This document shows, in pieces, positions 9,301-22,757 of a stretch of DNA of 64,000 bases. The DNA lies in contig NZ_JAGJBZ010000001.1 of assembly GCF_020010925.1 (NCBI RefSeq), forward strand, positions 2,896,001-2,960,000, written 5' to 3'. The stretch's first letter is position 1, and the number at the start of each line of letters is the position of its first letter. The notes under the pieces were generated by a model. The model saw only the letters and a program-made list of their open reading frames with translations, was not told where the DNA came from and did no database searches. The translations under genes were made by a program, and so were the position numbers. The stretch comes from Streptomyces griseiscabiei. GTDB lineage: Bacteria > Actinomycetota > Actinomycetes > Streptomycetales > Streptomycetaceae.

Positions 9301-10630
9301 CGGCGGTCGCGAGCTGGGGGTCGGGCAGGTCGGCGGGGGGCTGCTCGTCGGCCCCGGGGGCCGTCGCCTGCTGCTCGGGCTCGGGGGAGGCGGCCTCGGC
9401 CTCCGGTGCGTCGGCCTGGGCGGGCACGACGGCCGCCGTGTCGGCCTGCGGCACCTCGTCGGCCTCGGGCTCCTGCGGGGTCTGGGGGACCTCCTGGGCC
9501 TCGGCGACCGTCTGGGCCGGGACCGGCTCGGGGTCCTCGGCGGCCGGGGGGAACGGGGTCGTGTCCGGCGGCTGCGCGGCGGGCGGGGCCTCCTCGGCGG
9601 CGGGCGCCTCGGGGGCCTGCGGCTCCTCGGCCGGGGGCAGCTGCTCGGCGTCCACGACGGCCGTGGCTTCGGCGGCCTCGGACGCCGAGGGCTCGGCGGG
9701 TGCCTCCACGGGCGCCTGGCCGGCGGCCGGCTCCTCGACGGGCTCCGGGGCCTGGGGCTCCGCGGCGGCCGGGACTCCGACCGCCTCCGGGCCCTGGGTG
9801 TCGAGCGCGGCCGGCGCCTCCACGGCCACCGGGTCCTGGGTCTGTCCCAGGGCCTCGGCCTCTTCCGGTGCCTCGGTCGCCTGGACCTGCGCGGCGACCG
9901 GGGTCCCCACGGCCTCCGGGGTCCGGAACTGCGCGACCGCGGCCTCCTGGGCCAGGGCGTAGGCGGCGTCCTGGGCCTGGTGCAGGGCCTCGGGGTCCTG
10001 CAGCTCCTCCGGCGCCTCCGCGACCTGGGCCGCCAGGGGCGTGTCCGCCACGGCCACGGAGAGCTGCGCCTCCTGCGGAGCGACCGTTTCTGCGGCCGCA
10101 CCCCCCGCGGGCACTCCAGGCGCCGGGGCGGCCGGGGCGCCGACCCACTGCGACACGGGCTGCTGGGGCACGTCGAGGTACTCGGGGCCCGTGGTGGGCG
10201 GGCCGGGGTGGCGCATGGCGCCGGGCGGGACGGGGGCACCGGCCGGGCCCCGGTCGGCGAGGGAGCGGACCGGGCTGGCGGAGGCGTCGGGCGTGGGCGG
10301 GCCGAGGTGCAGCGGGCGGCGGGCCACCGGCGGCTGCGGGACGGGGGTCGCGACGGGGGCGCGGACGGCGCTGAGGTCGTGCGAGCCGCTGTCGCGGCCG
10401 GACATCTCGTGCGGGCCCGGCTCGTGGACGACCTGGACGACGGGCTCGGGAGCGGGCGGCGGCATCTCGTTGCCCCAGGCGCCCTGGGCGCCCGGCAGCA
10501 GGAGGTCCTCGTCCTCGGCGGCGGTTTCGGAGAGGTAGGTGTACGCACCCGGCGCGGGGACGCCCGGCTGCTCCACCATGCCTGCGCTCTCCGGCAGTCC
10601 CTCGCCCGGGACCTGGCCGGTGTCGGTCAT
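6329..10630 (-). CDS. cobT: BluB-CobT fusion with ~860-residue disordered N-terminal extension
   Basis: 1433 residues from ATG 10630 (MTDTGQVPGEGLPES; GAGGGG 5 nt upstream). Residues 1 to ~862 are low complexity, dominated by Ala, Pro, Glu, Gln and Val, acidic, without membrane segments or cysteines of note. Residues ~863-1080 form a BluB-like nitroreductase (RDIRNGFRGDPIPHDVL, SVGHSQPWDFVVIRS, GVGWVSFFDEREMV) expected to make 5,6-dimethylbenzimidazole from FMNH2. Residues ~1085-1433 are nicotinate-nucleotide:DMB phosphoribosyltransferase with FAGDHGVHAQGVTPWPQEVT, TGEMGIANTTASAAL and the catalytic Glu in LRLGEGTGALLAL. Making and activating the lower ligand in one polypeptide is chemically sensible. 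The extension is in frame throughout with a G/C third-position bias, so looks translated. Confidence 0.9.
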   Translation of the reverse strand: MTDTGQVPGEGLPESAGMVEQPGVPAPGAYTYLSETAAEDEDLLLPGAQGAWGNEMPPPAPEPVVQVVHEPGPHEMSGRDSGSHDLSAVRAPVATPVPQPPVARRPLHLGPPTPDASASPVRSLADRGPAGAPVPPGAMRHPGPPTTGPEYLDVPQQPVSQWVGAPAAPAPGVPAGGAAAETVAPQEAQLSVAVADTPLAAQVAEAPEELQDPEALHQAQDAAYALAQEAAVAQFRTPEAVGTPVAAQVQATEAPEEAEALGQTQDPVAVEAPAALDTQGPEAVGVPAAAEPQAPEPVEEPAAGQAPVEAPAEPSASEAAEATAVVDAEQLPPAEEPQAPEAPAAEEAPPAAQPPDTTPFPPAAEDPEPVPAQTVAEAQEVPQTPQEPEADEVPQADTAAVVPAQADAPEAEAASPEPEQQATAPGADEQPPADLPDPQLATAAPAPDAALAQDLQHSAEAPVTEEEPQPAEAGTAEAPTPEAQEEATQPEPVADPVTEADAVAEEPPPLDPAQPEPQPVAQNPGAAEPIALVEDQDQDPEQDSGQDQDQVHVQNETPDGGSNESPNEAPTETANTDHPQAVPPQATDPAPLPEATPPSALDALVGPGTTEANAPDPSADSTAAPEPAPTERPADETSPDPSAPVADPAAEAPVQVPVASRIDAPQGAVVRTPAEHTPDAPLAEPVTEADAEDQPLGGPETVDDSPAPAAAFPAAEDAPEPEGERVATVPAPRDSEAETIVVPHPVAATADAHPDVLQNAEDLDTRAADQEDGEAAARTAADVEAAPTAAAEESTAPVEEAPEDARDTTDAVPEAAPDDVPYAVTEEAPERAPDEAPDGVTQDAPQDVPDVVRQPTGPAAPAYDDAEREAVLKVMRERRDIRNGFRGDPIPHDVLLRVLEAAHTAPSVGHSQPWDFVVIRSAETRRTMHELAQRQREAYAKSLPKGRAKQFKELKIEAILDTPVNIVVTADPTRGGRHTLGRHTQPQMAPYSSALAVENLWLAARAEGLGVGWVSFFDEREMVRALGLPEHLEVVAYLCVGYVDEFPEEPELMQAGWAKRRPLSWVVHEETYGRRALPGAEPHDLLAETVAGIRPLDAKALGEAWERQKRMTKPAGALGMLEIISAQLSGLSRQCPPPIPEPAAVAIFAGDHGVHAQGVTPWPQEVTAQMVANFLGGGAVCNAFAAQVGAEVCVVDVGVASDLPATPGLLPRKVRAGTSDMTTGPAMTREEAKQAIEVGIETARDLVAAGNKALLTGEMGIANTTASAALIAVFTGADPTEVTGRGTGINDETLARKTEVVRRAIELHQPDPADPIGVLAAIGGFEHAAIVGLLLGGASLRTPVILDGVSAGAAALVARAIAPEVLAACIAGHRSAEPGHVAALQKLGLRPLVDLDLRLGEGTGALLALPVVQSAARAMHEVATFDSAGVTEK

Positions 10631-10977
10631 GCGTACCCCTCGCCCATCGGTTAGTGCCTCCATGCCAGCTGGCCCGGGAACGGCGCACCTACCGCCCCGC
10701 TGTGGAGAACGAGCGTGCGTGCCCAGCGGCACGTGACGACCCGGCTGCATGTCGACAAAGCCATTGAATGGCCATTGTCGCGGTCGTACCCCCGTCGCGA
10801 CAGCTTGATCCGCGACGGTCCGCTGTGGACTGCGCCACGTTGCGCGTCCTCCCCGTTTCGCCGTACCACACACGCCCTCAAAACGGGCGCGCTTTTAGGA
10901 CATTGACCGACGAAGTGCCGGATGCCGAAGTGCGGTACAACAGTCGGCCAGCTTACCGCGCCGGTACGACAACCGGA
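10631..10977. other. Intergenic region upstream of cobT, no gene; hairpin
   Basis: 347 bp between cobL and cobT. I see no cobalamin-riboswitch B12 box on the minus strand. Notable structures are an inverted repeat TGTCGCG...CGCGACA (10775-10801) and the overlapping small palindromes CCATTGAATGG/AATGGCCATT (about 10762-10778), which could be an operator. The open frame extends upstream of cobT but lacks an RBS-supported start. Confidence 0.5.
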
Positions 10978-12189
10978 TCACAGGGAACGTTCGGGCAGAG
11001 TCCCACTGAGCAGGAACGCGACGCTCCGTTCGCGTTCCGTCCAAGCCCTTGTATCGAGTTCGACGGACTGGACGAAGTCGCAGCGGACCTCGTATCCGTG
11101 CTCGGTGAGGTCCCGTCCGACGCGCTCGGCGGCGGGGCGGGTGAGGGCGTGGGTGACGATGCGCTGCGGGCGGCGGTCGGCGACGGCGGAGACCACGGCC
11201 GCTCCCCCGCCTCCGACGCGGACGACGTCGGGTTCGGGGAGGTTCTCCAGGATGTGCGGGGCGGCGCCGTGGACGACCTGGAGCCGGACGCCGAAACGGC
11301 GGGCGGCGAGGGTCGTACGGCCGCAGGCCTCGGGGTCGCGGTCGACGGCGATGACGGCGGCGCCGCTGCGGGCCGCCTCGGTGGCGAAGGCACCGCTGCC
11401 GGAGCCGATGTCCCACACCAGGTCGCCCACGCGCGGGCCCAGACGGGCCAGTTGGGAGGAGCGCAGCAGTTCTGCCTCGCCCTCGCCCAGGTGGTGGCCG
11501 TAGACGCCGGAGGGCTGGGCCCAGCCGCGTGGTCCGGTGCCGGGGTCGCGGCCGGCGAGCCAGCCGCCGCCCTCGGCGGAGCCCGCGTGGCCGCCTATGA
11601 CGATGACGAGGTTCGGGTCGCGCCAGGTGCGGTCGACCGCCTTGTCGGAGGCGACGATGGTGACCCGCTCGCGTTCCGTGCCGAGTTCCTCGCAGACCAC
11701 GAAGGTGCGGTGGACCCCGTCGAGGAGCAGCCCCAGTTCGGCGGGTCCGGCGCCGGGCGAGGTGAGGACGGCGACCTTGCCGTGGGCGCGGCAGACGTTC
11801 ACCGCGCGGCGCAGCGTACGGCGGTGGGCGACGACCACCTGGGCGTCGTCCCAGGGCATGCCGGCGCGGGCGAAGGCGGCGGCCACGGAGGAGACGCCGG
11901 GCACGACCTCGACCTCCAGGCCGAACTCGGGGGCCCTGAGGGTGCGGACGACACCGAAGAAGCCCGGGTCGCCGTCGGCGAGGACCACGGCGGTGCCGCG
12001 GTGGCCGGCGATCCGGCGGGCGGCGAGGGCGGCGCTGCCGAGCCGGATGCGTTCGGCGTTCGGGGGCACCTCGGGCAGGGCGAGGTGATGGGCCGCGCCG
12101 GCGACCAGGGTGGCCGCCGCGAGGGCGGAGCGCGCCGCGGCGGTCAGGGGGGAGCCGTCCCAGCCGATCACCGTGACCCGGTCGGCCAT
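10978..12189 (-). CDS. cobL: Precorrin-6Y C5,15-methyltransferase/decarboxylase (CbiE-CbiT fusion)
   Basis: 403 residues. The N-terminal half (1 to ~205) is the CbiE tetrapyrrole methyltransferase (MADRVTVIGWDGSPLTAAAR, VVLADGDPGFFGVVRTL, VEVVPGVSSVAAAFARAG); the C-terminal half is CbiT with the SAM site LVWDIGSGSGAFATEAAR and AVDRDPEACGRT. Together they methylate C5 and C15 of precorrin-6B and decarboxylate the C12 acetate. It belongs with cobA and cobT immediately downstream on the same strand, but the 347-bp gap to cobT suggests separate promoters. Confidence 0.93.
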   Translation of the reverse strand: MADRVTVIGWDGSPLTAAARSALAAATLVAGAAHHLALPEVPPNAERIRLGSAALAARRIAGHRGTAVVLADGDPGFFGVVRTLRAPEFGLEVEVVPGVSSVAAAFARAGMPWDDAQVVVAHRRTLRRAVNVCRAHGKVAVLTSPGAGPAELGLLLDGVHRTFVVCEELGTERERVTIVASDKAVDRTWRDPNLVIVIGGHAGSAEGGGWLAGRDPGTGPRGWAQPSGVYGHHLGEGEAELLRSSQLARLGPRVGDLVWDIGSGSGAFATEAARSGAAVIAVDRDPEACGRTTLAARRFGVRLQVVHGAAPHILENLPEPDVVRVGGGGAAVVSAVADRRPQRIVTHALTRPAAERVGRDLTEHGYEVRCDFVQSVELDTRAWTERERSVAFLLSGTLPERSL

Positions 12190-12312
12190 CGTCGTCAGTC
12201 TCCAGAGGTCTTCGCAGGTCGTCGGAGATGCCCGCGGAGGTCCCGTGAGACTACCTGGTGACGTGCGGGGCTCCGGCGGCCGGGCGTGCGGCCGCGCATG
12301 CCCGTGGGTGGT

Positions 12313-12948
12313 TCAGTTCCAGTCCGGGTAGGAGCCGAAACCACCACTGTCGGCCAGTTCCTCGCCGACGCCCTCGATGTCCTCCGGGAGGAGGCTCCAG
12401 ACGATGAAGTCGGTGCGGACCTCGGTCCAGCCGTCCTCGGCGGTGCGGGCGCGCGCTATGCAGGCGTTGCGCAGCACGCCCTCGCTGATACAGCCGATCT
12501 TCTGCGCGACCTGCTGCGAGGCGGTGTTGTCGGCGGCGGTGCGCAGCTCGATGCGTTCGAACTTCTGCTCACGGAACAGCCATTGGGCGGTGGCGAGGGC
12601 GGCTTCGGAGGCGTAGCCCTCGCCGCGGGCCCAGGGGGCGACGACGTACGACAGTTCCGTCGCTCGCACGTGCCAGTCGGTCTTGGTCAACTGGATGACG
12701 CCGACCAGGCGCTGGGTGAGGAACTCCGTGACGGCGAGGTCGAGGCCGCGGCCGGAGGTGCGTTCGGTGGGCGCGTACTCGGTGATCCAGGTACGCGCCT
12801 CGCGTTCGGTGAAGGGCTGCGGGACCTCGGTCCAGGTCATCACCTGTTCGTCGTTCATCATCTCGGTGAACGCCTGGATGTCGTCCTCGTCGAACGGGCG
12901 CAGAACCAACCGATCCGTGCTGATGGAGATGTCGGGAAAGGTGCTCAT
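12313..12948 (-). CDS. GNAT N-acetyltransferase (RimJ/RimL type)
   Basis: 211 residues from MSTFPDISISTDRLVLRPFDED. The RimJ/L signature is present: TDRLVLRPF at the start, YVVAPWARGEGYASEAAL (acetyl-CoA pyrophosphate loop) and RIELRTAADNTASQQVAQKIG. It likely acetylates an alpha-amine or small amine; substrate unknown. ATG 12951 and ATG 12948 are adjacent; GGAG lies 7-10 nt ahead of both. Downstream of metQ on the same strand but separated by ~200 bp containing a short tandem repeat, so probably an independent unit. Confidence 0.85.
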   Translation of the reverse strand: MSTFPDISISTDRLVLRPFDEDDIQAFTEMMNDEQVMTWTEVPQPFTEREARTWITEYAPTERTSGRGLDLAVTEFLTQRLVGVIQLTKTDWHVRATELSYVVAPWARGEGYASEAALATAQWLFREQKFERIELRTAADNTASQQVAQKIGCISEGVLRNACIARARTAEDGWTEVRTDFIVWSLLPEDIEGVGEELADSGGFGSYPDWN

Positions 12949-13106
12949 CATGCGCCGCTCCGTAACCTTCGAAAACTTTGAGAGCTTGCTGAACTGCCCA
13001 GCATGCAGCATGAAAGCACTGAATCGCACCACAGGGGTCCACTCCCCGTGAGGGAGCGGACCCCATGCGTGGCGATACGCCGTATACGTACGGTCGGAAT
13101 ATGTCC

Positions 13107-13142
13107 GGACCGGAGAACGCATCGGAGAACGGACCGGAGAAC
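13107..13142. repeat. Three 12-bp direct repeats (GTTCTCCGGTCC type)
   Basis: Minus strand reads GTTCTCCGGTCC, GTTCTCCGATGC, GTTCTCCGGTCC back to back. They lie between metQ and the GNAT gene, about 160-190 bp upstream of the GNAT start. Could be an activator-binding array or a minisatellite. Confidence 0.75.
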
Positions 13143-13156
13143 CGATCGCGGGACGG

Positions 13157-13990
13157 TCAGAAGGACGGGACGACGGAGCCGTTGCTCCACTTGTCCTCGA
13201 TGAACTTCCTGACCTCGTCCGAGGTGAGGAGCTTGGCGAGCTTCTCGACGCGCGGGTCGTCCTCGTTGCCCTCCTTGACGGCGAGGAAGTTGCCGTTCGG
13301 GTTGTCCTCGGCGGGCTCGACGGCGAGGGCGTCGTCGGCGGGCGAGAGGTCGGCCTCCAGGGCGTAGTTGCCGTTGATCACCGCGGCGTCGACGTCGTCG
13401 AGGGAGCGCGGGGTCTGGGCCGCCTCCAACTCCTTGAACGTGAGCTTCTTCGGGTTCCCGGTGATGTCGGCGGGGGTCGCGTCGGTGCCGACGCCGTCCT
13501 TGAGCGTGATGATCCCGGCGGAGTCGAGGAGCTTGAGGGCGCGCGCCTCGTTGACGGTGTCGTTCGGGACGGCGACGGTCGCGCCGGTCCTGAGGTCGTC
13601 CTTGCTCTTGACCTTGTTCGAGTAGAGGCCGAGCGGCTCCAGGTGCACGGTGACGACGGGCACGATGTGGGTGCCCCGCTGCTTGTTGAAGTCGTCGAGG
13701 TACGGCTGGTTCTGGAAGTAGTTGGCGTCCACGGAGCCGTCCTCGGTCGCCGTGTTCGGCAGGACGTAGTCGGTGAACTCCTTGACCTCCAGGTCGAGGC
13801 CCGCCTTCTCCGCCAGGTTGTCCTTGACGAAGTTCAGGATCTCGGCGTGCGGGGTGGGGCTGGCGGCGACGACCAGCGGGCCGCTCGTGTCGGACGCGCT
13901 GTCGGCCTTGTCCGCGCCGCACGCGGTGAGCCCGAGGGTGAGGGCTCCGGCGGCGAGGACGGCGGTGGTGAGCTTGGCGGTGTTACGCAC
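13157..13990 (-). CDS. metQ: Methionine ABC transporter substrate-binding lipoprotein (MetQ/NlpA)
   Basis: 277 residues starting at GTG 13990 (RNTAKLTTAVLAAGALTLGL), with GGAAAGG 8 nt ahead. The lipobox LTAC places the lipidated Cys at residue 24. The mature part has NlpA-family features: VAASPTPHAEILNFVKD, DYVLPNTATEDGSVDANYFQNQPYLDDFN, VAVPNDTVNEARALKLLDSAG, and a C-terminal LTSDEVRKFIEDKW. It captures methionine (possibly also methionine sulfoxide or D-Met) outside the cell and delivers it to MetNI. Third gene of the metN-metI-metQ operon, about 80 bp after metI. Confidence 0.93.
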   Translation of the reverse strand: MRNTAKLTTAVLAAGALTLGLTACGADKADSASDTSGPLVVAASPTPHAEILNFVKDNLAEKAGLDLEVKEFTDYVLPNTATEDGSVDANYFQNQPYLDDFNKQRGTHIVPVVTVHLEPLGLYSNKVKSKDDLRTGATVAVPNDTVNEARALKLLDSAGIITLKDGVGTDATPADITGNPKKLTFKELEAAQTPRSLDDVDAAVINGNYALEADLSPADDALAVEPAEDNPNGNFLAVKEGNEDDPRVEKLAKLLTSDEVRKFIEDKWSNGSVVPSF

Positions 13991-14070
13991 GAAAAGTGCC
14001 TTTCCTTTTGGGTGGAGCGATCCCGTCTTGGGTGGGACGGGACATCTGTGAGCGTGCGGGGACCCGGGTG

Positions 14071-14748
14071 TCAGGCCTTGGCGGCCCGGCCGACGCGCCG
14101 GTGCAGGACACGGGCTGCTTGGTCGCCGGCGAACTGGATGGCGGAGATGACGACCGCGAGCACCGCCACGGTGATCCACATCAGTTCGGTCTCGAAACGC
14201 TGGTAGCCGTACCGGATGGCGATGTCGCCGAGGCCGCCCGCGCCGACGGTGCCGGCCATGGCCGAGTAGCCGATGAGGGCGACGACGGTGGTGGTGGCGG
14301 AGGAGATCAGCGAGGGCAGGGACTCGGGCACGAGGACCCTGCGGACGACCGTCCAGGTGTTGCCGCCCATGGCCTGCACGGCCTCGACGAGCCCGTGGTC
14401 CACTTCGCGGACGGACGTCTCGACGAGACGGGCGAAGAACGGGATCGCGCCGATGGCGAGCGGCACGATGGCGGCCTCACGGCCGATGGTCGAGCCGGTG
14501 ACCCAGCGGGTGAAGCCCATCAGCGCGACCATCAGGATGATGAACGGCATCGAGCGGGCGATGTTCACGATCTGCCCGATGATCTTGTTGGCGAGGACGT
14601 TCTGCAGCAGGCCGCCCCGGTCGGTGAGGACGAGCAGGATGCCGAGCGGGAGTCCGCCGACGATCGCGATGAGGGTGGACCAGCCGACCATGTAGAGCGT
14701 GTCCCAACACGCCTGCTCCAGCAGCGGCCGCATCTCGGACCAGGTCAC
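14071..14748 (-). CDS. metI: Methionine ABC transporter permease
   Basis: 225 residues, start GTG 14748 (TWSEMRPLLEQACWDTLYMV), overlapping the metN stop by 4 bp (GTGA), which indicates translational coupling. About five transmembrane helices and the permease EAA loop VEAVQAMGGNTWTVVRRVLVPESLPSL, followed by the conserved GYSAMAGTVGAGGLGDIAIRYGYQRF of MetI proteins. Membrane channel for methionine with the MetN ATPase. Confidence 0.94.
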   Translation of the reverse strand: MTWSEMRPLLEQACWDTLYMVGWSTLIAIVGGLPLGILLVLTDRGGLLQNVLANKIIGQIVNIARSMPFIILMVALMGFTRWVTGSTIGREAAIVPLAIGAIPFFARLVETSVREVDHGLVEAVQAMGGNTWTVVRRVLVPESLPSLISSATTTVVALIGYSAMAGTVGAGGLGDIAIRYGYQRFETELMWITVAVLAVVISAIQFAGDQAARVLHRRVGRAAKA

Positions 14749-15809
14749 TTGGCACCTTCCTTCACCGGCGCGGACGTGGCGGCGGACGTCCGGGCGTCCC
14801 GGCCGACCACGTCGATCTGGAGGCCCTGTTCGCGCAGGAACCCGACGGGGACCACGTTGTCCTCGTAGCGGCCGGGCAGTTCGATGCGCATCCGGCCGAT
14901 CTGGAGGCCGCCGACGGTGTCGATGGCGGCGCCGAGGATCGAGATGTCGATGTTGTACGTACGGGACAGCTGGGAGATGACCGGCTGGGTGGCGGTCTCG
15001 CCCTGGAAGGTGACGTCGAGGACCGTGCGGTCGTCACCGGTGGCCTCGCCGCCGACGGGGAAGAGTGCGGCGGCCAGTTCGGAACCGGGGGTGGCGAGCA
15101 GTTCGCCGACCGTGCCGGACTCCACGATGCGGCCCCTGTCCATGAGGGCGGCCGAGTCGCAGACGGTCTTGACGACGTCCATCTCGTGCGTGATGAGCAG
15201 GACGGTCAGGCCCAGCTGCCGGTTCAGGTCGCGCAGCAGGTGGAGGATCGAGCGGGTGGTCTCCGGGTCGAGGGCGCTGGTGGCCTCGTCGGAGAGCAGC
15301 ACCTCGGGGTCGCCGGCCAGGGCGCGGGCGATGCCGACGCGCTGCTTCTGGCCGCCGGAGAGCTGGGCCGGGTAGACCTTGGCCTTGTCGGCGAGACCGA
15401 CGAGGTCGAGCAGGTCGAGGGCCTTGCGGGAGCGCTCCTTGCCGGACCTGCCGAGGATGTCGAGCGGCAGTTCGACGTTCTCCTGGACGGTGCGGGAGGA
15501 GAGCAGGTTGAAGTGCTGGAAGACCATGCCGATACGGCTGCGCGCCCGGCGGAGTTCGCGGCTCGCGCGGGGGCCGCGCCCGGCCAGGGCGGTGAGGTCC
15601 CGGCCGGCGACGGTCACGGTTCCGGAGGTGGGGCGTTCGAGGAGGTTGACGCAGCGGATCAGCGAGGACTTGCCGGCGCCGGACTGGCCGATCACGCCGT
15701 ACACCTCGCCCTCGCGGACATGCAGATCGACGCCGTCGAGGGCGGTGACCTCGCGGCCTCGACCTCGGTCGGCCCGATAGATCTTCGTCAGGCCCGATGT
15801 GGTGATCAC
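14745..15809 (-). CDS. metN: Methionine ABC transporter ATP-binding protein
   Basis: 354 residues from GTG 15809 (ITTSGLTKIYR). Walker A GQSGAGKS, Q-loop VFQHFNLL, signature LSGGQKQR, Walker B VLLSDEATSALD and H-loop ITHEMDVV are all intact. The C-terminal ~95 residues are a NIL-type ligand domain (TVLDVTFQGETATQPVISQL), which in MetN homologues binds methionine and inhibits transport. An in-frame ATG at 15857 would add 16 residues with no similarity to other MetN N-termini and is disfavoured. First structural gene of the operon; see the leader reading frame upstream. Confidence 0.94.
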   Translation of the reverse strand: MITTSGLTKIYRADRGRGREVTALDGVDLHVREGEVYGVIGQSGAGKSSLIRCVNLLERPTSGTVTVAGRDLTALAGRGPRASRELRRARSRIGMVFQHFNLLSSRTVQENVELPLDILGRSGKERSRKALDLLDLVGLADKAKVYPAQLSGGQKQRVGIARALAGDPEVLLSDEATSALDPETTRSILHLLRDLNRQLGLTVLLITHEMDVVKTVCDSAALMDRGRIVESGTVGELLATPGSELAAALFPVGGEATGDDRTVLDVTFQGETATQPVISQLSRTYNIDISILGAAIDTVGGLQIGRMRIELPGRYEDNVVPVGFLREQGLQIDVVGRDARTSAATSAPVKEGAK

Positions 15810-15978
15810 TGGATTTCCGTCACTGTCGAGTGCGCGGGCGTGGGTGTGCCCGGGCACGGGTGCAAGCGGTCAGGGACGCGACACGGTTCTCGCGGTGGCG
15901 ATGGAACCGGGGGAGAACATGTGCGCGGGGCGGCTCGGTCCGTCGGACGGAGCGGCGTGCGGGGCCCTTTGTCAGGCT

Positions 15979-16065
15979 CTAGCAGGCGCACATTCGACAC
16001 ATACAACGAGCACCGGGCGTCATCGTCGCCTCGGTCGCAGGAGTGCGGTAGCTCGTCGTGGTCAT
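15979..16065 (-). CDS. Putative Cys/Met-rich leader peptide upstream of metN
   Basis: Reads 28 codons from ATG 16065 (MTTTSYRTPATEATM...) to a TAG and ends RCMCRMCAC: four Cys and two Met in the last eight residues. A second ATG at 16023 (MTPGARCMCRMCAC, 14 aa) has GAGG 5 nt before it and is the more likely start; the first ATG could be leaderless (TTTACT 6 nt upstream). Between its stop and metN lie ~170 nt with an imperfect 9-bp hairpin (15933-15953, GCTCCGTCC/GGACCGAGC). Position ahead of a methionine-uptake operon and the Cys/Met tail suggest ribosome-mediated attenuation by sulfur amino acid supply. This is inference from sequence; no expression evidence. Confidence 0.55.
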   Translation of the reverse strand: MTTTSYRTPATEATMTPGARCMCRMCAC

Positions 16066-16206
16066 GAGATCAGTAAAGCAGATGTATGGAGCAGGCGAGA
16101 GAGGGCTGTCCGTATAGCGGACGGGTCTGAGAGACATAACCGCAGGTGTGACGCGGTGGCGTCCACCCTGTGGGCACTTGCCGTTGTGGCCAAGGCCACC
16201 ATGGGC

Positions 16207-16228
16207 GGACCTCCGGGCGGGGAGGTCC
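16207..16228. other. 8-bp inverted repeat (GGACCTCC/GGAGGTCC)
   Basis: Hairpin with 6-nt loop in the divergent region between the metN leader and the membrane-protein pair at 16273. Followed on the plus strand by GCGGGGTTTTGGG. Could be an operator or terminate stray transcription; role unclear. Confidence 0.45.
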
Positions 16229-16272
16229 GGGGCCGGACGCGGCGGGGTTTTGGGCCGTAATAGGGTCGCGGC

Positions 16273-16632
16273 ATGCTTGTAGCCCTGACGGTGACGACCG
16301 CCGTCGCCGCGCTTCTGCTCGCCGCCTGGTGCGGCTGGGCCGCGTATCGCGATCAGCCGACCAAGGACTGGCACTTCATCGGCATGGCCGTGGTGTCGGT
16401 GCTCGCCCTGGTGCAACTGGTCGTCGGCGTCGTGCAGTTGGCGCGCGGGGAGAAGCCGGAGCAGGGGACCACGATCTTCGTCTCCTATCTCCTCGGGGCC
16501 TTCGCCTGTGTTCCGGTGACCGGGTTCATGTCACTGGCGGAGCGCACCCGCTGGGGCAGCGTGACCGTCGCGGCGGGCGGCGTGGTGCTGGCCGTGCTGC
16601 AGGTACGGCTCTATGACATCTGGGGAGGCTGA
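16273..16632 (+). CDS. Small four-helix membrane protein
   Basis: 119 residues, MLVALTVTTAVAALLLAAW at the N-terminus, with about four hydrophobic segments separated by short polar loops (RDQPTKDWHF, ARGEKPEQG, LAERTRWG). No catalytic motif. The ATG at 16273 has no strong RBS (GGGTCGCGGC). It is followed after one base by a second small membrane protein, so the two form a coupled pair, perhaps a complex. No family recognised. Confidence 0.7.
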   Translation: MLVALTVTTAVAALLLAAWCGWAAYRDQPTKDWHFIGMAVVSVLALVQLVVGVVQLARGEKPEQGTTIFVSYLLGAFACVPVTGFMSLAERTRWGSVTVAAGGVVLAVLQVRLYDIWGG

Positions 16633-16633
16633 G

Positions 16634-17068
16634 ATGACGGCCACGGACGACCGCCTGCCGCAGGACGGGAAGCGGGCGCGGCTCATCAGCGGGCCGGGGA
16701 TGCTGCTGGTGTGGCTGTACGGCGTGATGGTCGTCGGGGCCGTGTCGCGGTCCGCCGTGCAGATCTCGACCGAGTTCGAGCACGCGCCGCTCGCCTACTC
16801 GCTGTCCGCGCTGGCCGGGGTCGTGTACGGCTTCATCACGTACTCGCTGGTGCGGGGCGGGGAGTTCGCCCGGCGGGCCGCGCGGGTCTGCTGCGCGGTG
16901 GAGCTGGCGGGCGTGCTGATCGTGGGGACGTGGACGCTGGTGGAGCCGTCGGCGTTCCCGGACAAGACGGTGTGGTCGGACTACGGGATCGGGTATCTGT
17001 TCATTCCGGTGATCCTGCCGGTCACGGCGCTGTACTGGCTGCGCAAGGGTGCGCGGGCGCCCCGTTAG
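16634..17068 (+). CDS. Small four-helix membrane protein, partner of the preceding gene
   Basis: 144 residues from MTATDDRLPQDGKRARLISGPG. Four hydrophobic helices (MLLVWLYGVMVVGAV, LSALAGVVYGFITYSLV, VCCAVELAGVLIVGTW, YGIGYLFIPVILPVTALYWL) with a basic C-terminus. GGGGAGG precedes the ATG and overlaps the upstream stop, so translation is probably coupled. The helix layout resembles small integral membrane proteins common in Streptomyces; function unknown. Confidence 0.75.
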   Translation: MTATDDRLPQDGKRARLISGPGMLLVWLYGVMVVGAVSRSAVQISTEFEHAPLAYSLSALAGVVYGFITYSLVRGGEFARRAARVCCAVELAGVLIVGTWTLVEPSAFPDKTVWSDYGIGYLFIPVILPVTALYWLRKGARAPR

Positions 17069-17074
17069 GGGCGC
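17057..17074. terminator. GC hairpin terminator spanning a stop codon
   Basis: GCGCCCC, loop GTTA, GGGGCGC. The TAG stop of the membrane-protein gene lies partly in the loop. Between convergent genes, so likely bidirectional. Confidence 0.65.
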
Positions 17075-17085
17075 GGCACGCTTCC

Positions 17086-17583
17086 TCACGCGGTCGTCGC
17101 GTACGCCTCCGCCGGTTTCTCCAGCACGACCATCGGTACGCCGTCCTGGCCCTGGCTCGTGCCCACGGTCTCGTACCCCACCCGGCGGTACAACCGCAGG
17201 TTGCCCTCGCTGCGGTGGCCCGCGCTCAGCCGGAACCTGGTGGCGCCGTGCTGCTCGGCGAGGGCCGACTCGGCGGCGCGGAGGAGCCGGGCGCCGATGC
17301 CGTGGCCCTGGAGGCGCGGGTGGACGCAGAGCTTGCCGATGGCGGCGGCGCCGTCGTCGTCGAGGGCGCCGCGCACGGAGCCGACCACCTCGTCACCCAG
17401 CCGGGCCACGAACACGCAGTCCGAGGCGACCTCCGCACGGACGGAGTCGAGCCTCTGCACGAGCGGATCGATGCGGTAGTTGCCGTACAGTGCCGCCTCG
17501 CTCTGGAAGCACAGGTACTGCAGCCTGAAGATCTGCTCGGCGTCCTGCTCGGTCGCCACCGAGATGGTCACGCTCATGCCCAT
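17086..17583 (-). CDS. GNAT N-acetyltransferase
   Basis: 165 residues from ATG 17583 (MGMSVTISVATEQDAEQIF); GGGAGG is 9 nt upstream. Typical GNAT core: VARLGDEVVGSVRGAL, LCVHPRLQGHGIGARLLRAAE (acetyl-CoA loop, Q/RxxGxG/A) and RLYRRVGYETVG. Substrate cannot be predicted. Convergent with the membrane-protein pair. Confidence 0.85.
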   Translation of the reverse strand: MGMSVTISVATEQDAEQIFRLQYLCFQSEAALYGNYRIDPLVQRLDSVRAEVASDCVFVARLGDEVVGSVRGALDDDGAAAIGKLCVHPRLQGHGIGARLLRAAESALAEQHGATRFRLSAGHRSEGNLRLYRRVGYETVGTSQGQDGVPMVVLEKPAEAYATTA

Positions 17584-17628
17584 GTGTGCACGCCTCCCGC
17601 TCACCTGCTCACCCGATGTCCTTCACTC

Positions 17629-18135
17629 CTATCCCCGTGGTTCGCGTGCCGCAACCTCCGCGGTCAGCAATCGCCGAAGACATCCGAGACATCTGGAGCG
17701 TTCCGGACCGAGGCTGCCCTGTGAGATACCCAACTCGCCCGCGATCTCGCGGTAGGTGAGGTCCTGCGGGGAGAGCAGCGCGGCGAGGAGCCGGGGGCAG
17801 CGGCCGGGGAGCCGGCGTACGGCCGCGTACAGCGCGCGGCGGCGGGCTGCCGTGAGGGCCTGCTGCTCGGGGCCGGGCGCGCGGTCGTCGGCGGGTTCGG
17901 CGGCGTAGGGCTGTTCGAGGCGGGCCTTGCGGCGGCTGAGGCGGGCCTCGAAGCGGACGGCGCTGCGCAGCCAGCTCTCCGGGTCCTCGGGCGGGCCGTC
18001 GGCGTCGAGCCGTTCCAGCAGGCGCAGCCAGACCGCCTGTTCCAGGTCTCCCGCCTCGGCGCCGGCCGCGGAGGCCTCGGCCGACACCTCCGCGACCAGC
18101 AGGGGGCGGAGGCCGGTGAGCATGTCGTGTGTCAT
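17629..18135 (-). CDS. Small RNA polymerase sigma factor (ECF-like)
   Basis: 168 residues, MTHDMLTGLRPLLVAEV at the start. A degenerate region 2 (DLEQAVWLRLLERL, ESWLRSAVRFEARLSRRKAR) is followed by a clear region-4 helix-turn-helix: LTYREIAGELGISQGSLGPERSRCLGCLRRLL. No anti-sigma gene is next to it. The longer frame to 18189 has no RBS. The ATG lies 17 nt beyond a strong 11-bp hairpin (18152-18178) in the mRNA leader or upstream terminator, so initiation may be structure-dependent. Confidence 0.8.
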   Translation of the reverse strand: MTHDMLTGLRPLLVAEVSAEASAAGAEAGDLEQAVWLRLLERLDADGPPEDPESWLRSAVRFEARLSRRKARLEQPYAAEPADDRAPGPEQQALTAARRRALYAAVRRLPGRCPRLLAALLSPQDLTYREIAGELGISQGSLGPERSRCLGCLRRLLTAEVAAREPRG

Positions 18136-18151
18136 ATGCCCCGGGACGCCG

Positions 18152-18178
18152 CCGCCCCGGCAGGGGTTGCCGGGGCGG
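18152..18178. terminator. 11-bp hairpin between glpQ and the sigma-factor gene
   Basis: CCGCCCCGGCA, loop GGGGT, TGCCGGGGCGG: perfect stem. Downstream of glpQ on the minus strand, so probably its terminator, though no T-run follows. Confidence 0.6.
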
Positions 18179-18262
18179 ACGGGAGTCACCCCAATCGGGG
18201 GACGGGGCTCAGCCGTTGACGGTCGGGGCCACCGGGCCGCCTCCGGAGCCCGAGGGCGGCCG

Positions 18263-19477
18263 TCAGTCGCCGACGAAGTCCGCGTGGGCCAGCAGACCGG
18301 TGTCCGGGTTGTCGGTGAAGATGCCGTCGATGCCGGTGTCGAAGTACACCTTGAACGCGCCGAAGGCGTCGCCGTAGGCGTTGGCGTCCGTGCCGCTGCG
18401 GAAGTTCGCGGGCAGGAAGGTGTTCTCGTTGCGCATCGTGTAGGGGTGCAGGATCAGGCCCTCGGCGTGCGCGTCGGCGACGAGCGTGGTCGGCGTGGTG
18501 AGGTTGCCGGCCGAGTCGCGCGGGATGATCAGGTCGAGCGTGGGGCCGATGCCGCCCGCGTACGAAGCGATCCAGGCGAGCCCGGCCGGCTTGACCAGGT
18601 CGGCGACGGTGCGCGGGTCGCCGGCCTCGACGAAGTCCCAGGGGCGGGTGGCGGCGCCGGAGAGCAGCACGACGAGGGGGCTGTCGACCAGACGGTTCAG
18701 CCGCTGGATGCTGCTCGGCTCGAAGGACTGCAGGAAGACGGGCGAGTTCTTCTTGTGCCGGTCGTACTTGCGCAGCAGCTTGGCGAGCGGCTCCTCCAGG
18801 CCGAGGCCCAGCTTGCGGAAGTAGGTGGGGTGCTTGGTCTCGACGTGCAGCCAGATCCGCCTGCCCCGCTTCCTGCCCTCCTTGTCGGCCCAGCGCAGGA
18901 CCTCCTCGAAGGAGGGGATCTCCCAGCGGCCGTCGTAGAGGGTGTTCTCCTGGCGGTTGCCCGGGATGCGCTCCTTGGCGCGCAGGGTCTTCAGCTCGGC
19001 GAGGGTGAAGTCCTCGGTGAACCAGCCGGTGTAGGTGACCCCGTCGACGACCTTCGTGGCCTTGCGGCCCGCGAACTCGGGGTGCGCGGCGACGTCGGTC
19101 GTGCCGGTGATGTCGTTCTCGTGACGGCATACGAGATGGCCGTCCTTGGTGGGCACCAGGTCCTGCTCGATGACGTGCGCGCCCATGTCGAGGGCGAGCT
19201 GGTACGAGCCGAGCGTGTGCTCCGGGCGGTAGCCGCTGGCCCCGCGGTGGGCGATGATCGTCGGCACCGGCAGACTCCGGTACCCGCCGCGCGAGTGACC
19301 GGCCGTCTTCGCTTCCGCCTTCGCGCTCGTCCCCGCCTCGTCGGCCCGCGCCGTGGCCGGCAGCCCGAGGACCGCTCCGCCCGCGCCGAGCACCGCGGCA
19401 CCGAGCAGCGCCCGCCGGCCCGATCCGCGTCCCTGCTCGTCCGAGTCCTGCGACTGCCGCGACTCCTGCGTCCCCAT
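18263..19477 (-). CDS. glpQ: Secreted glycerophosphodiester phosphodiesterase
   Basis: 404 residues from ATG 19477 (MGTQESRQSQ); GGAGGAG is ~8 nt upstream. A twin-arginine export signal is visible (GSGRRALLGAAVLGAGGAVLGLPATARA), so the enzyme is folded before export. The GDPD core has IIAHRGASGYRPEHT (catalytic His), EQDLVPTKDGHLVCRHE (metal Glu/Asp) and LHVETKHP. It hydrolyses glycerophosphodiesters to glycerol-3-phosphate and alcohol to scavenge phosphate. Homologous glpQ genes of S. coelicolor are PhoP-controlled; a weak GTTCACC-like array lies upstream (19682-19725). Confidence 0.92.
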   Translation of the reverse strand: MGTQESRQSQDSDEQGRGSGRRALLGAAVLGAGGAVLGLPATARADEAGTSAKAEAKTAGHSRGGYRSLPVPTIIAHRGASGYRPEHTLGSYQLALDMGAHVIEQDLVPTKDGHLVCRHENDITGTTDVAAHPEFAGRKATKVVDGVTYTGWFTEDFTLAELKTLRAKERIPGNRQENTLYDGRWEIPSFEEVLRWADKEGRKRGRRIWLHVETKHPTYFRKLGLGLEEPLAKLLRKYDRHKKNSPVFLQSFEPSSIQRLNRLVDSPLVVLLSGAATRPWDFVEAGDPRTVADLVKPAGLAWIASYAGGIGPTLDLIIPRDSAGNLTTPTTLVADAHAEGLILHPYTMRNENTFLPANFRSGTDANAYGDAFGAFKVYFDTGIDGIFTDNPDTGLLAHADFVGD

Positions 19478-19681
19478 GAACGGCTCCTCCACCGTGATGC
19501 CCTGCACCTGTCAAAGCGGGACGATCGTAGGTGTCCTGAGGTGACTGCCGGGAGACCTGGGACCGAACACGCGGAAGACGCCTTATGTCGCACCGAAGGC
19601 AGAAGTTGACGGAGTATCGGTTCAGGGACGCGACATACGTCACATGTCACGCCCGGGTGACAACCCGCCACCTCTGCGTCA

Positions 19682-19725
19682 CCGCAGGTAAAACAGCGTC
19701 AACAGTTGGTATCCACTCGGTGAAC
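19682..19725 (-). promoter_or_regulatory. Possible PHO-box-like direct repeats upstream of glpQ
   Basis: Read on the minus strand, four 11-nt units begin GTTCACC, GGATACC, GTTGACG, TTTACCT. Streptomyces PHO boxes are 11-nt direct repeats with GTTCACC core, so this is a candidate, but only the first unit is good and it lies ~205 nt from the glpQ start. Confidence 0.3.
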
Positions 19726-19808
19726 CCGATGTGCGCGGGCCTGTGAGCCGGGAGTATCGTCCTCACCTGCACAGACTTGTACCGGAACGCTTGACATGGG
19801 AGGGCCCG

Positions 19809-20483
19809 TTGTCCCGCTTCGTGCTCATCAAGGCAGTGCTCGGACCGATCATGCGCCTGATGTTCCGCCCCCGGGTGGAGGGTGCGGAGAACATTCCGGG
19901 GGACGGTCCGGTGATCCTCGCCGGCAACCATCTGACCTTCATCGACTCGATGGTCCTGCCGCTGGTCTGCGACCGGCAGGTCTTCTTCATCGGCAAGGAC
20001 GAGTACGTCACCGGCAAGGGGTTCAAGGGCCGGCTGATGGCCTGGTTCTTCACCGGGGTCGGCATGATCCCCGTCGACCGCGACGGCGGCCGGGGCGGGG
20101 TCGCCGCGCTGATGACCGGGCGGTGGATCCTGGACGAGGGCAAGGTGTTCGGCATCTACCCCGAGGGGACCCGGTCGCCCGACGGCCGGCTGTACCGGGG
20201 GCGGACCGGGATCGCCCGGCTGACGCTGATGACCGGGGCGCCGGTGGTGCCGTTCGCGATGATCGGGACGGACAAGCTCCAGCCGGGTGGTGCGGGGTTG
20301 CCCCGGCCGGGGCGGGTCACGGTGCGGTTCGGCGAGGCGATGGAGTTCTCCCGGTACGAGGGGATGGACCGGGACCGCTATGTGCTGCGCGCGGTGACCG
20401 ATTCCGTGATGGCCGAGGTCATGCGGTTGTCGGGGCAGGAGTACGTGGACATGTACGCGTCCAAGGCGAAAGAGGCGGCCTAG
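19809..20483 (+). CDS. 1-acyl-sn-glycerol-3-phosphate acyltransferase (PlsC family)
   Basis: 224 residues from a TTG at 19809 (SRFVLIKAVLGPIMRLMF) with GGGAGGG 4 nt upstream. The acyltransferase motifs are NHLTFIDS (HX4D catalytic), GRLMAWFFTGVGMIPVDRD and the substrate-binding YPEGTRSPDG, plus PVVPFAMIGTDKL. The N-terminal segment is a membrane-associated helix. It transfers acyl groups to lysophosphatidate or a related acceptor at the cytoplasmic membrane. Divergent from glpQ. Confidence 0.88.
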   Translation: MSRFVLIKAVLGPIMRLMFRPRVEGAENIPGDGPVILAGNHLTFIDSMVLPLVCDRQVFFIGKDEYVTGKGFKGRLMAWFFTGVGMIPVDRDGGRGGVAALMTGRWILDEGKVFGIYPEGTRSPDGRLYRGRTGIARLTLMTGAPVVPFAMIGTDKLQPGGAGLPRPGRVTVRFGEAMEFSRYEGMDRDRYVLRAVTDSVMAEVMRLSGQEYVDMYASKAKEAA

Positions 20484-20522
20484 CTCCGCGGTGGCGCTCC
20501 GCTGGGGGTGCCGGGGACTTCG

Positions 20523-21328
20523 GTCGTTTGTCGGGTGCGGGTCGGTGGGGGCTGGTCGCGCAGTTCCCCGCGCCCCTGACCATGCTGGCCCTGAGCCGCG
20601 CTTTCCAGGCGCCGGCCGCGCAGCATGAACCAGGCCGCCACCGACGTGGCCAGCAGAACCACCGCACCCGCGATCGGTCGTTTGTCGGGTGCGCGTCGGC
20701 GGAGGCTTCTCGCGCCGTTCCCCGCGCCCCTGACCATGCTGGCCCTGAGCCGCGCATTCCAGACGCCGGCCGCGCAGCATGAACCAAGCCGCCACCGACA
20801 TGGCCAGCAGAACCACCGCACCCGCGACCGCCGCGATCGGTCGTTCGTCGGGTGCGCGTCGGCGGAGGCTTCTCGCGCAGTTCCCCGCGCCCCTGACCAT
20901 GCTGGCCCTGAGCCGCGCATTCCAGACGCCGGCCGCGCAGCATGAACCAAGCCGCCACCGACGTGGCCAGCAGAACCACCGCACCCGCGACCGCCGCGAT
21001 CGGTCGTTCGTCGGGTGCAGGTCGGTGGAGGCTTCTCGCGCAGTTCCCCGCGCCCCTGACCATGCTGGCCCTGAGCCGCGCATTCCAGGCGCCGGCCGCG
21101 CAGCATGAACCAAGCCGCCACCGACGTGGCCAGCAGAACCACCGCACCCGCGACCGCCGCGATCGGTCGTTCGTCGGGTGCGGGGCGGTGAGGGCTTCTC
21201 GCGCAGTTCCCCCGCGCCCCTGGTCGCGCTGTCCTAAGCGGCGCTTTCCAGGCGCTGGCCGCGCAGCATGAACCAGGCCGCCACCGATGTGGCGAAGAGG
21301 ACCGCCGCGCCCGCGCCCGCCGCGATCG
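20523..21328. repeat. Tandem array: five copies of the 3' end of the MFS gene plus flank
   Basis: Unit starts are at 20523, 20677, 20840, 21003 and 21166, so periods are 154, 163, 163 and 163 bp; the shorter first unit lacks 9 bp (ACCGCCGCG). The last unit (21166-21328) contains the real C-terminal ~95 bp of the MFS gene with its TAG stop. The other four carry the same final helix (minus-strand ATSVAAWFMLRGRRLE) but with the stop changed to CAG, then the GGGCGCGGGGAACTGCGCGA element. The array fills the 750 bp between the PlsC-like and MFS genes, and I see no separate gene in it. Confidence 0.92.
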
Positions 21329-22757
21329 TGAGGCCGTCCACGAAGGACTCCCGCGCGGAGGACAGCAGGGCCTGGGCCGTGTCCGACGGCATGCCTCCCG
21401 CCGCGTCGACCGCGCCGCCCAGTGATTCGTACGCGCCTTCCGGTGTGCCCGCCGGTGCCGTGAAGTCGCGGTACACGCCCGTCACGATCGAGCCGAGGAC
21501 CGCGATGCCCAGGGCCGCGCCCAGTTCGTAGGCCGTCTCCGAGACCGCCGAGGCCGCGCCCGCCTGTTCCTTGGGGACGCTGGAGAGGATGACGTCGGCG
21601 GTGACGGTGAAGGAGAAGCCGGCGCCGATGCCGACGATCAGCAGGGCGGCGCCGATCAGGGGGTAGCCCGTGGACCGGTCGACGACGGTGAGCAGGGCGA
21701 GGGCCAGGCCGATGGCGGCCAGGCCGCCCGCGACCACGGAGCGGACGGAGAGACGGCGGGCGGCGGCTCCGGCGATCAGGCCCGCGACCACCGCGCCGAT
21801 CGCCGCCGGGAGTTCCGCGAGACCCGCCTCCAACGGGCGCCTGTCCTGGACCAGTTGCAGGAACTGGGAGAGGAAGAAGACCAGCCCGGACAGGCCGAGG
21901 ATGGTCAGCAGGTCGGCGAGGACGGCTCCGGAGAAGCCCCGGTTGCGGAAGAGCCGCATGTCCAGCAGCGGGTGCGGCAGGGTGAGCTGACGGCGTACGA
22001 AGAAGAACAGCCCGGCGATGCCGAAGAGGCCCGCGGCGAGCGCGTTGCCGTCGACGCCGTGGGTGGCGATCTCCTTCACCGCGTACACGACACCGATCAT
22101 GCCGACCAGCGACAGGCCGACGCTGAGCATGTCCCAGGGGCCCGGGTTCGGGTGGCGGGACTCGGGGAGCAGCTTGATGCCGACGAGGACCAGGACGGCC
22201 ATCACGGGCAGGTTGATGAGGAAGACCGAGCCCCACCAGAAGTGTTCGAGCAGGAAACCGCCGACGACCGGGCCGACCGCCGTACCGGCGGAGGCCGTGG
22301 CGCCCCAGATGCCGATGGCGAGGCTGCGTTCGCGCGGGTCGTGGAAGAGGTTGCGGATCAGGGCGAGGGTGGCGGGCATCAGGGTCGCGCCCGCGACACC
22401 GAGCAGGGCCCGCGCGACGATCATCATCTCGGGTGTCGTCGCGTACGCGTTGAGCACGGATATCGCGCCGAACGCCGTGGCGCCGATCAGCAGCAGCTTC
22501 TTGCGGCCGATGCGGTCGCCGAGGCTGCCGGCCGAGACGAGCAGGCCCGCGATGACGAACGAGTAGACGTCGCCGATCCACAGGAGCTGGGTGCCCGAGG
22601 GCTGGAGGTCCTCGCTGATGTAGGGGGTCGCGAGACCGAGGACGGTCGCGTCGACGGCCACCAGCAGCACGGCGAGCACGAGGACGGCGAGCGCGAGCCA
22701 GCGGCCCGGCCTCTTCTCCGCCTCCACGGTGCGGGCCGGCCGCAGGGTGCTGGTCAT
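21234..22757 (-). CDS. MFS multidrug efflux transporter (DHA2, 14-TM type)
   Basis: 507 residues from ATG 22757 (MTSTLRPARTVEAEKRPGRW). DHA2 motifs: LVAVDATVLGLATPYISEDL in helix 1, GSLGDRIGRKKLLL (motif A) and ALLGVAGATLMPATLALI (motif C-like). About 14 helices. Proton-driven export of hydrophobic compounds is expected. The start overlaps the TetR stop (ATGA), so the repressor gene and pump form one coupled operon. Its last ~95 bp have been copied in the adjacent tandem array. Confidence 0.93.
   Translation of the reverse strand: MTSTLRPARTVEAEKRPGRWLALAVLVLAVLLVAVDATVLGLATPYISEDLQPSGTQLLWIGDVYSFVIAGLLVSAGSLGDRIGRKKLLLIGATAFGAISVLNAYATTPEMMIVARALLGVAGATLMPATLALIRNLFHDPRERSLAIGIWGATASAGTAVGPVVGGFLLEHFWWGSVFLINLPVMAVLVLVGIKLLPESRHPNPGPWDMLSVGLSLVGMIGVVYAVKEIATHGVDGNALAAGLFGIAGLFFFVRRQLTLPHPLLDMRLFRNRGFSGAVLADLLTILGLSGLVFFLSQFLQLVQDRRPLEAGLAELPAAIGAVVAGLIAGAAARRLSVRSVVAGGLAAIGLALALLTVVDRSTGYPLIGAALLIVGIGAGFSFTVTADVILSSVPKEQAGAASAVSETAYELGAALGIAVLGSIVTGVYRDFTAPAGTPEGAYESLGGAVDAAGGMPSDTAQALLSSARESFVDGLTIAAGAGAAVLFATSVAAWFMLRGQRLESAA

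Follow-up and report, generated by a model that had tools for sequence, protein, structure and literature searches.

The window, meaning the whole 64,000-nucleotide stretch of Streptomyces griseiscabiei DNA that was analysed, carries on its minus strand a metNIQ methionine-uptake operon that is preceded by a short leader open reading frame (Table 1). The best NCBIfam match of metN was TIGR02314 MetN, yet under the curated cut-off. MetI passed its curated NCBIfam cut-off, and the third gene matched MetQ-type families best, none of them passing the cut-off. An earlier note on this DNA had described a frame from ATG 16065 that ends in R-C-M-C-R-M-C-A-C-stop, with about 170 nt of leader RNA between it and metN. 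This frame exists and runs to TAG 15979, its translation (minus-strand 16065..15979) is MTTTSYRTPATEATMTPGARCMCRMCAC, and the distance from its stop to the metN start was measured as 169 nt. Two other elements of that description were given up. The alternative start at ATG 16023 was rejected, since ATG stands at codon 15 in 80 of 133 Streptomyces leaders and another codon does in 53, and the hairpin placed at 15933–15953 had no counterpart in six aligned relatives, a similar stretch being seen by eye in a few nearest ones (L020, L022, and L039).

Table 1. Features of the metNIQ leader region in the window.
Feature	Position	Strand	Basis
Operator-like palindrome GTCCGCTATACGGAC (= GTCCGnnATnCGGAC), -57 to -43 from the presumed start site	16108..16122	-	Pattern counts
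-10-like hexamer TTTACT, 6 nt before ATG	16072..16077	-	Conserved spacing; leaderless start of metL reported in S. lividans (PMC8079986)
Leader ORF (metL-like), 28 aa, leaderless ATG to TAG	15979..16065	-	ORF listing and comparison across relatives
P1 5' strand of the predicted three-way junction, nt 7–15	16051..16059	-	RNAalifold and pair counts
P2 hairpin, nt 19–22 with 27–30; loop formed by variable codons 8–9	16036..16047	-	RNAalifold and covariation
P3 hairpin, nt 31–39 with 47–54, bulged A at 16031; loop formed by variable codons 14–15	16012..16035	-	RNAalifold and covariation
P1 3' strand, nt 55–63; takes in the first Cys codon TGT	16003..16011	-	Pair counts
Cys/Met tail, codons 21–28 (C M C R M C A C)	15982..16005	-	Tail alignment
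Hairpin of the earlier note, outside the conserved element	15933..15953	-	Alignment of relatives
Conserved block CACTCGACAGTGACGGAAATCCA (= ACTCGACAGTGACGG) before metN, ribosome-binding region	15810..15832	-	Alignment
metN, GTG start	14745..15809	-	NCBIfam and conserved start region
metI	14071..14748	-	NCBIfam
metQ ORF, listed start	13157..14179	-	NCBIfam; true start probably further in

The leader had been taken for undescribed, which was wrong. Table 4 of PMC8079986 includes it for S. lividans: metL (SLIV_29928, MSTTSDRTPATEATTTPGARCMCRRMCAF) is a leader peptide with a leaderless start ahead of the metNIQ operon and was interpreted there as an attenuator containing several Met and Thr, with several hairpins and the "typical structure missing" for a terminator. 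Compared by eye, the published S. lividans TK24 peptide can be aligned with that of the window and its relatives. Both leaders precede metNIQ, both start leaderless (as reported for metL and as suggested here by the spacing of the TTTACT hexamer), and neither shows a typical Rho-independent terminator (PMC8079986). By sequence and place, the leader in the window is the metL leader and hence already known. A full-text search on metNIQ leader peptides in Streptomyces returned PMC8079986 as the sole paper; the accessible part of its metL account mentions no cysteine role, fold within the ORF, or cross-species comparison. What is new here is the predicted three-way-junction RNA that is made by leader codons 3–21.

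A DNA match to the leader (E <= 0.01) was obtained in 378 of 392 Streptomyces genomes, including one weak and doubtful match (G364) in a genome with no close MetN. Judged by these matches, conservation of the leader exceeds chance, and the claim that a Cys/Met-tailed leader fronts metNIQ is well supported by the comparison. The leader tracks metN. Ten of the 14 leader-negative genomes have no close MetN (G030, G052, G087, G118, G120, G153, G241, G305, G385, and G397; best MetN search E 1.3e-73 to 2.0e-52; genomes with a close MetN reach 5.5e-156 or better), two have metN cut off or at a contig end (G008 and G058), and two carry metN with a diverged leader (G121 and G143). Diverged leaders before metN also occur in G551, G493, and G210, with covariance-model matches that were weak, due to chance, or none, and G502 and G584 resemble G364 in having no close MetN either. 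The covariance model further revealed the leader in six additional genera of the same family (29 leaders read). Stricter filters applied to 394 genomes elsewhere in the class gave no convincing leader, the best E outside the family (5.1e-6) being treated as noise.

In total, 166 leaders were counted, namely 133 distinct Streptomyces leaders and 33 later ones, and 29 of the 166 come from the six other genera. The Streptomyces set goes back to 167 loci, which yielded 146 parsed leaders and, after merging of 13 duplicates, 133. Reading of 13 of the 21 unparsed loci revealed five leaders (three with longer tails, two cut at the locus end) and eight chance matches; by their titles, none of the other eight loci is from Streptomyces. 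For the later set, 36 loci were retrieved and 33 leaders counted, as three weak within-family matches (L262–L264) proved to be chance matches on reading and were left out of all counts.

Conserved Cys-Met tails, which the earlier note had proposed as a check across Streptomyces, were indeed present in 133/133 Streptomyces leaders, parsed under the demand of a Cys/Met-containing end. Once the 33 later leaders are added, for which the search model lacked the tail, 166/166 have one or more Cys and one or more Met after a PG[AVLI] motif. No leader devoid of Cys and Met was met among the parser-missed loci that were read (13/21). The commonest tail is RCMCRMCAF (54/133). Its length varies by whole codons only: 21 of 98 parsed leaders from a tail-blind pattern scan exceed 28 aa, and three further longer leaders were read in frame by eye. 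Strict amino-acid selection is countered by tail position -3, which is Arg in 19/133, and by position -7, which is other than Met in 23/133. A separate observation concerns the rare Arg codon CGA, which stands just before the last tail Met in 166/166 leaders (CGA-ATG, 15991–15996 in the window) and for which the three-way junction gives no explanation.

The codons ahead of the tail appear to be constrained at the RNA level. RNAalifold of 66 leaders (<90% identity over leader and spacer) predicted a three-way junction, of which P1 comprised nt 11–15/55–59 and was extended by pair counts to 7–15/55–63. Variable codons fall on the linker (6) and on the loops (8–9 and 14–15). Codon 9 has T as its last base in 127/133 whatever the residue, which matches pairing with A22. 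Among codons whose residue is shared by at least 97% of 119 loci, synonymous variants were absent in 10 of 12 leader codons, compared with 2 of 39 in a 60-codon stretch of metN from the same loci, where the mean minor-codon share was 18%. Three of the frozen leader codons, GCT, GGT, and CGT, make up 1, 7, and 9% of their own families in seven neighbouring ORFs. The synonymous-only changes that had been proposed as a further check were looked for, and the outcome was unexpected: most of the first 20 codons are without synonymous change, apparently because the RNA fold is built by those codons.

Covariation was assessed at three depths, each against shuffles without correction for shared descent. 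Streptomyces alone (81 sequences) gave little, with one double-change pair and 42/500 shuffles as high, because the stems hardly vary within the genus. Across the family, compensating changes were found at nt 14–56 (GC to AU in other genera), 39–47 (GC to AU in three groups, L256, L258/L259, and L270/L271), 21–28 (CG to UA in L258/L259), and 37–49 (GC to AU in L270/L271). For 36 leaders, picked by hand from the 114 then listed (81 + 33), 93.5% of the cells were paired and 21 showed a double change, and 0/500 shuffles were as high in paired cells, double-change cells, or score. The weaker measures were the number of pairs (23/500 shuffles as high) and further pair types (307/500); slid partners left 25–45% of the cells paired, slide -2 equalling the covariation score (0.098) at 45%. 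In 113 distinct codon-aligned rows, taken from 170 with L254 left out owing to an extra codon, 94.6% were paired and eight pairs and 41 cells showed a double change, against means of 3.8 pairs and 9.3 cells in shuffles (0/500 as high).

The window fold had a predicted energy of -23.3 kcal/mol (z -3.0; -1.4 to -3.0 in seven relatives). When each leader was recoded synonymously 1000 times, the share folding at least as well was 1.2% for the window and 1.6% for L009; the distinction was weak for L230 (5.7%), L269 (10.7%), and L235 (12.2%), and there was none for L258 (43.5%), L267 (57.8%), and L270 (87.8%). The junction was not the minimum-energy fold in 6/18 diverged or odd leaders (L251, L255, L257, L267, L268, and L269). 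In L006 and L053, P1 is restored by a shift or extension of its register, and in L271 the junction forms with a largely different P3. Among other RNAalifold candidates, a pairing of the leader start with the metN start was disbelieved, as the strands are nearly invariant, a mismatch is retained, and GTGATCAC is self-complementary, and a pairing of the tail with a post-stop hairpin showed mostly one-sided changes. Comparison across relatives establishes the ORF, its Cys/Met tail, and a predicted three-way-junction RNA folded from its own codons 3–21.

Downstream, metN starts 130–249 nt past the leader stop in 125/133 Streptomyces leaders and was found after 32/33 later ones. Among the remaining eight, the locus ends too soon in seven, and the pattern in L134 is slightly different by eye. 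The spacer contains 44.8% C and 27.8% G, with C exceeding G in 125/125, figures that describe leader spacers alone. Rho sites are C-rich and G-poor. An intrinsic terminator was searched for in 15780–16260 and rejected, as no terminator-like site was found there, which also sets the leader apart from trp-type attenuators with a terminator hairpin and U-run competing with an antiterminator. Two further features of the spacer were observed. The block directly before metN is strongly conserved, non-coding, and wider than a ribosome-binding site would need, and a hairpin core CGC-GCCCCGAA-GCG follows the leader stop in 134/166 leaders (L002, L230, L258, and others; some loci end too soon) and is missing in the window and in its near relatives, L020, L022, and L039 among them.

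The effect of a ribosome on the junction was approached in a folding model of 60 leaders, in which it was represented as a blocked stretch. With the ribosome at the stop, the junction was kept (P1/P3 probability 0.84/0.99); with the ribosome on the tail, it fell to 0.00, an outcome fixed by construction, as its 3' strands lie within the blocked stretch. The metN start had a predicted openness of 0.46–0.49 in all ribosome states, with no junction effect. Thus, a direct switch on metN translation is unsupported, and sequestration of the metN start by the junction was rejected. If the junction acts, leader re-initiation and downstream RNA exposure would be more likely targets than the metN start.

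Upstream of the leader, TTTACT lies 6–7 nt ahead of the ATG in 130/133 distinct Streptomyces leaders and in 32/33 later ones, and this spacing fits leaderless initiation at ATG 16065. Further upstream, GTCC-N7-GGAC begins 56–58 nt before the ATG in 124/133 Streptomyces leaders. Such a fixed distance would suit a transcription factor that regulates the operon from the -57 palindrome, with leader and fold setting mRNA stability or basal expression and no amino-acid sensing involved. However, the palindrome was present in only 3/33 later leaders, all three from Streptomyces, and in 0/29 in other genera, where leader and fold persist, and the retention of Cys and Met in every tail likewise speaks against this explanation, which is considered unlikely. 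Across this genome, the pattern is present at eight places (reversed control pattern, two), one copy lying between genes of the TauD family and for an amino-acid permease (L176) and one before an isopropylmalate/isocitrate dehydrogenase-type gene (L175).

As a conserved structured RNA stands before a methionine gene, the junction might also be a riboswitch whose ligand is a sulfur metabolite (e.g. SAM or methionine) and whose target is translation of the leader, the tail being secondary. This appears improbable, since linker nt 16–18 vary and some relatives have replaced or shifted stems, which is not typical of a binding pocket, and since the in-frame tail and stop are retained. Nor was there an Rfam match: at the gathering score, Rfam 15 gave no family in window positions 10000–22000 or in five relatives, and a permissive scan of 401 nt returned two weak eukaryotic families only. 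A literature search, with most subscription papers outside its reach, found no described structured RNA at the metNIQ leader. Least probable is that the Cys/Met tail itself arrests the ribosome as a metal or oxidation sensor, for which the C-M-C-R-M-C spacing and the induction of S. coelicolor metNIQ by oxidative stress (PMC4991794) would speak, but the peptide upstream of the tail is unconserved in diverged leaders and tail spacing is variable.

The best reading, held with slightly less than even confidence, is that the leader is a leaderless regulatory upstream ORF (uORF) of metNIQ that reports Cys and Met supply through ribosome position. Under a shortage of Cys-tRNA or Met-tRNA, the ribosome would pause on codons 21–27, where its footprint would cover P1 and P3 in their 3' halves and keep the junction open. 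With an ample supply of both amino acids, the ribosome would reach the stop and the junction could refold behind it, from three nucleotides after the 5' AUG. The refolded junction might then hinder the next leaderless initiation and keep ribosomes off the C-rich RNA that precedes metN. In the output, the weakest step, plenty might lead to more Rho-dependent termination or decay before metN and starvation to less. In S. coelicolor, metNIQ was raised together with cysteine genes under oxidative stress in dependence on HbpS-SenS-SenR (PMC4991794), which fits a joint Cys/Met logic, though not uniquely.

Related systems are known from other actinobacteria. Mycobacterial Cys-rich leaderless uORFs (PMC4633059; Canestrari 2020 via PMC9031893) are likewise short, have a Cys-rich end, and precede sulfur-related operons, and no conserved terminator was seen upstream of mycobacterial cys operons (PMC1262725). 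The leader described here differs in mixing Cys with Met, in preceding a Met-uptake operon, and in sharing its sequence with a conserved RNA fold. A run of contiguous Cys codons close to the stop, a feature of the mycobacterial polycysteine attenuator, was not found in the C-M-C-R-M-C-A-C tail of the window, and Cys and Met are likewise interspersed in the other tails compared. For the Corynebacterium ilvBNC operon, a conserved region titled uORF was sought as a structured RNA before an amino-acid operon (PMC10272879); the likeness is one of description, and other amino acids and genes are concerned. It is a rather doubtful but conceivable extension that the leader represents a new class of dual-coded cis-regulator, confined to one bacterial family as far as searched, in which uORF codons would build a ribosome-gated junction, integrate Cys and Met charging, and throttle their own re-initiation.

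Several actinobacterial leader peptides have no visible terminator (PMC8079986, PMC1262725). A conserved fold that is contained in the leader ORF and immediately precedes the putative sensing codons is a concrete candidate switch. It also calls for caution, as RNA pairing, and not peptide function, can underlie Cys/Arg exchanges and rare codons in leaders of this kind. One short stretch may thus do two jobs, as a leader peptide and as a conserved three-armed RNA.
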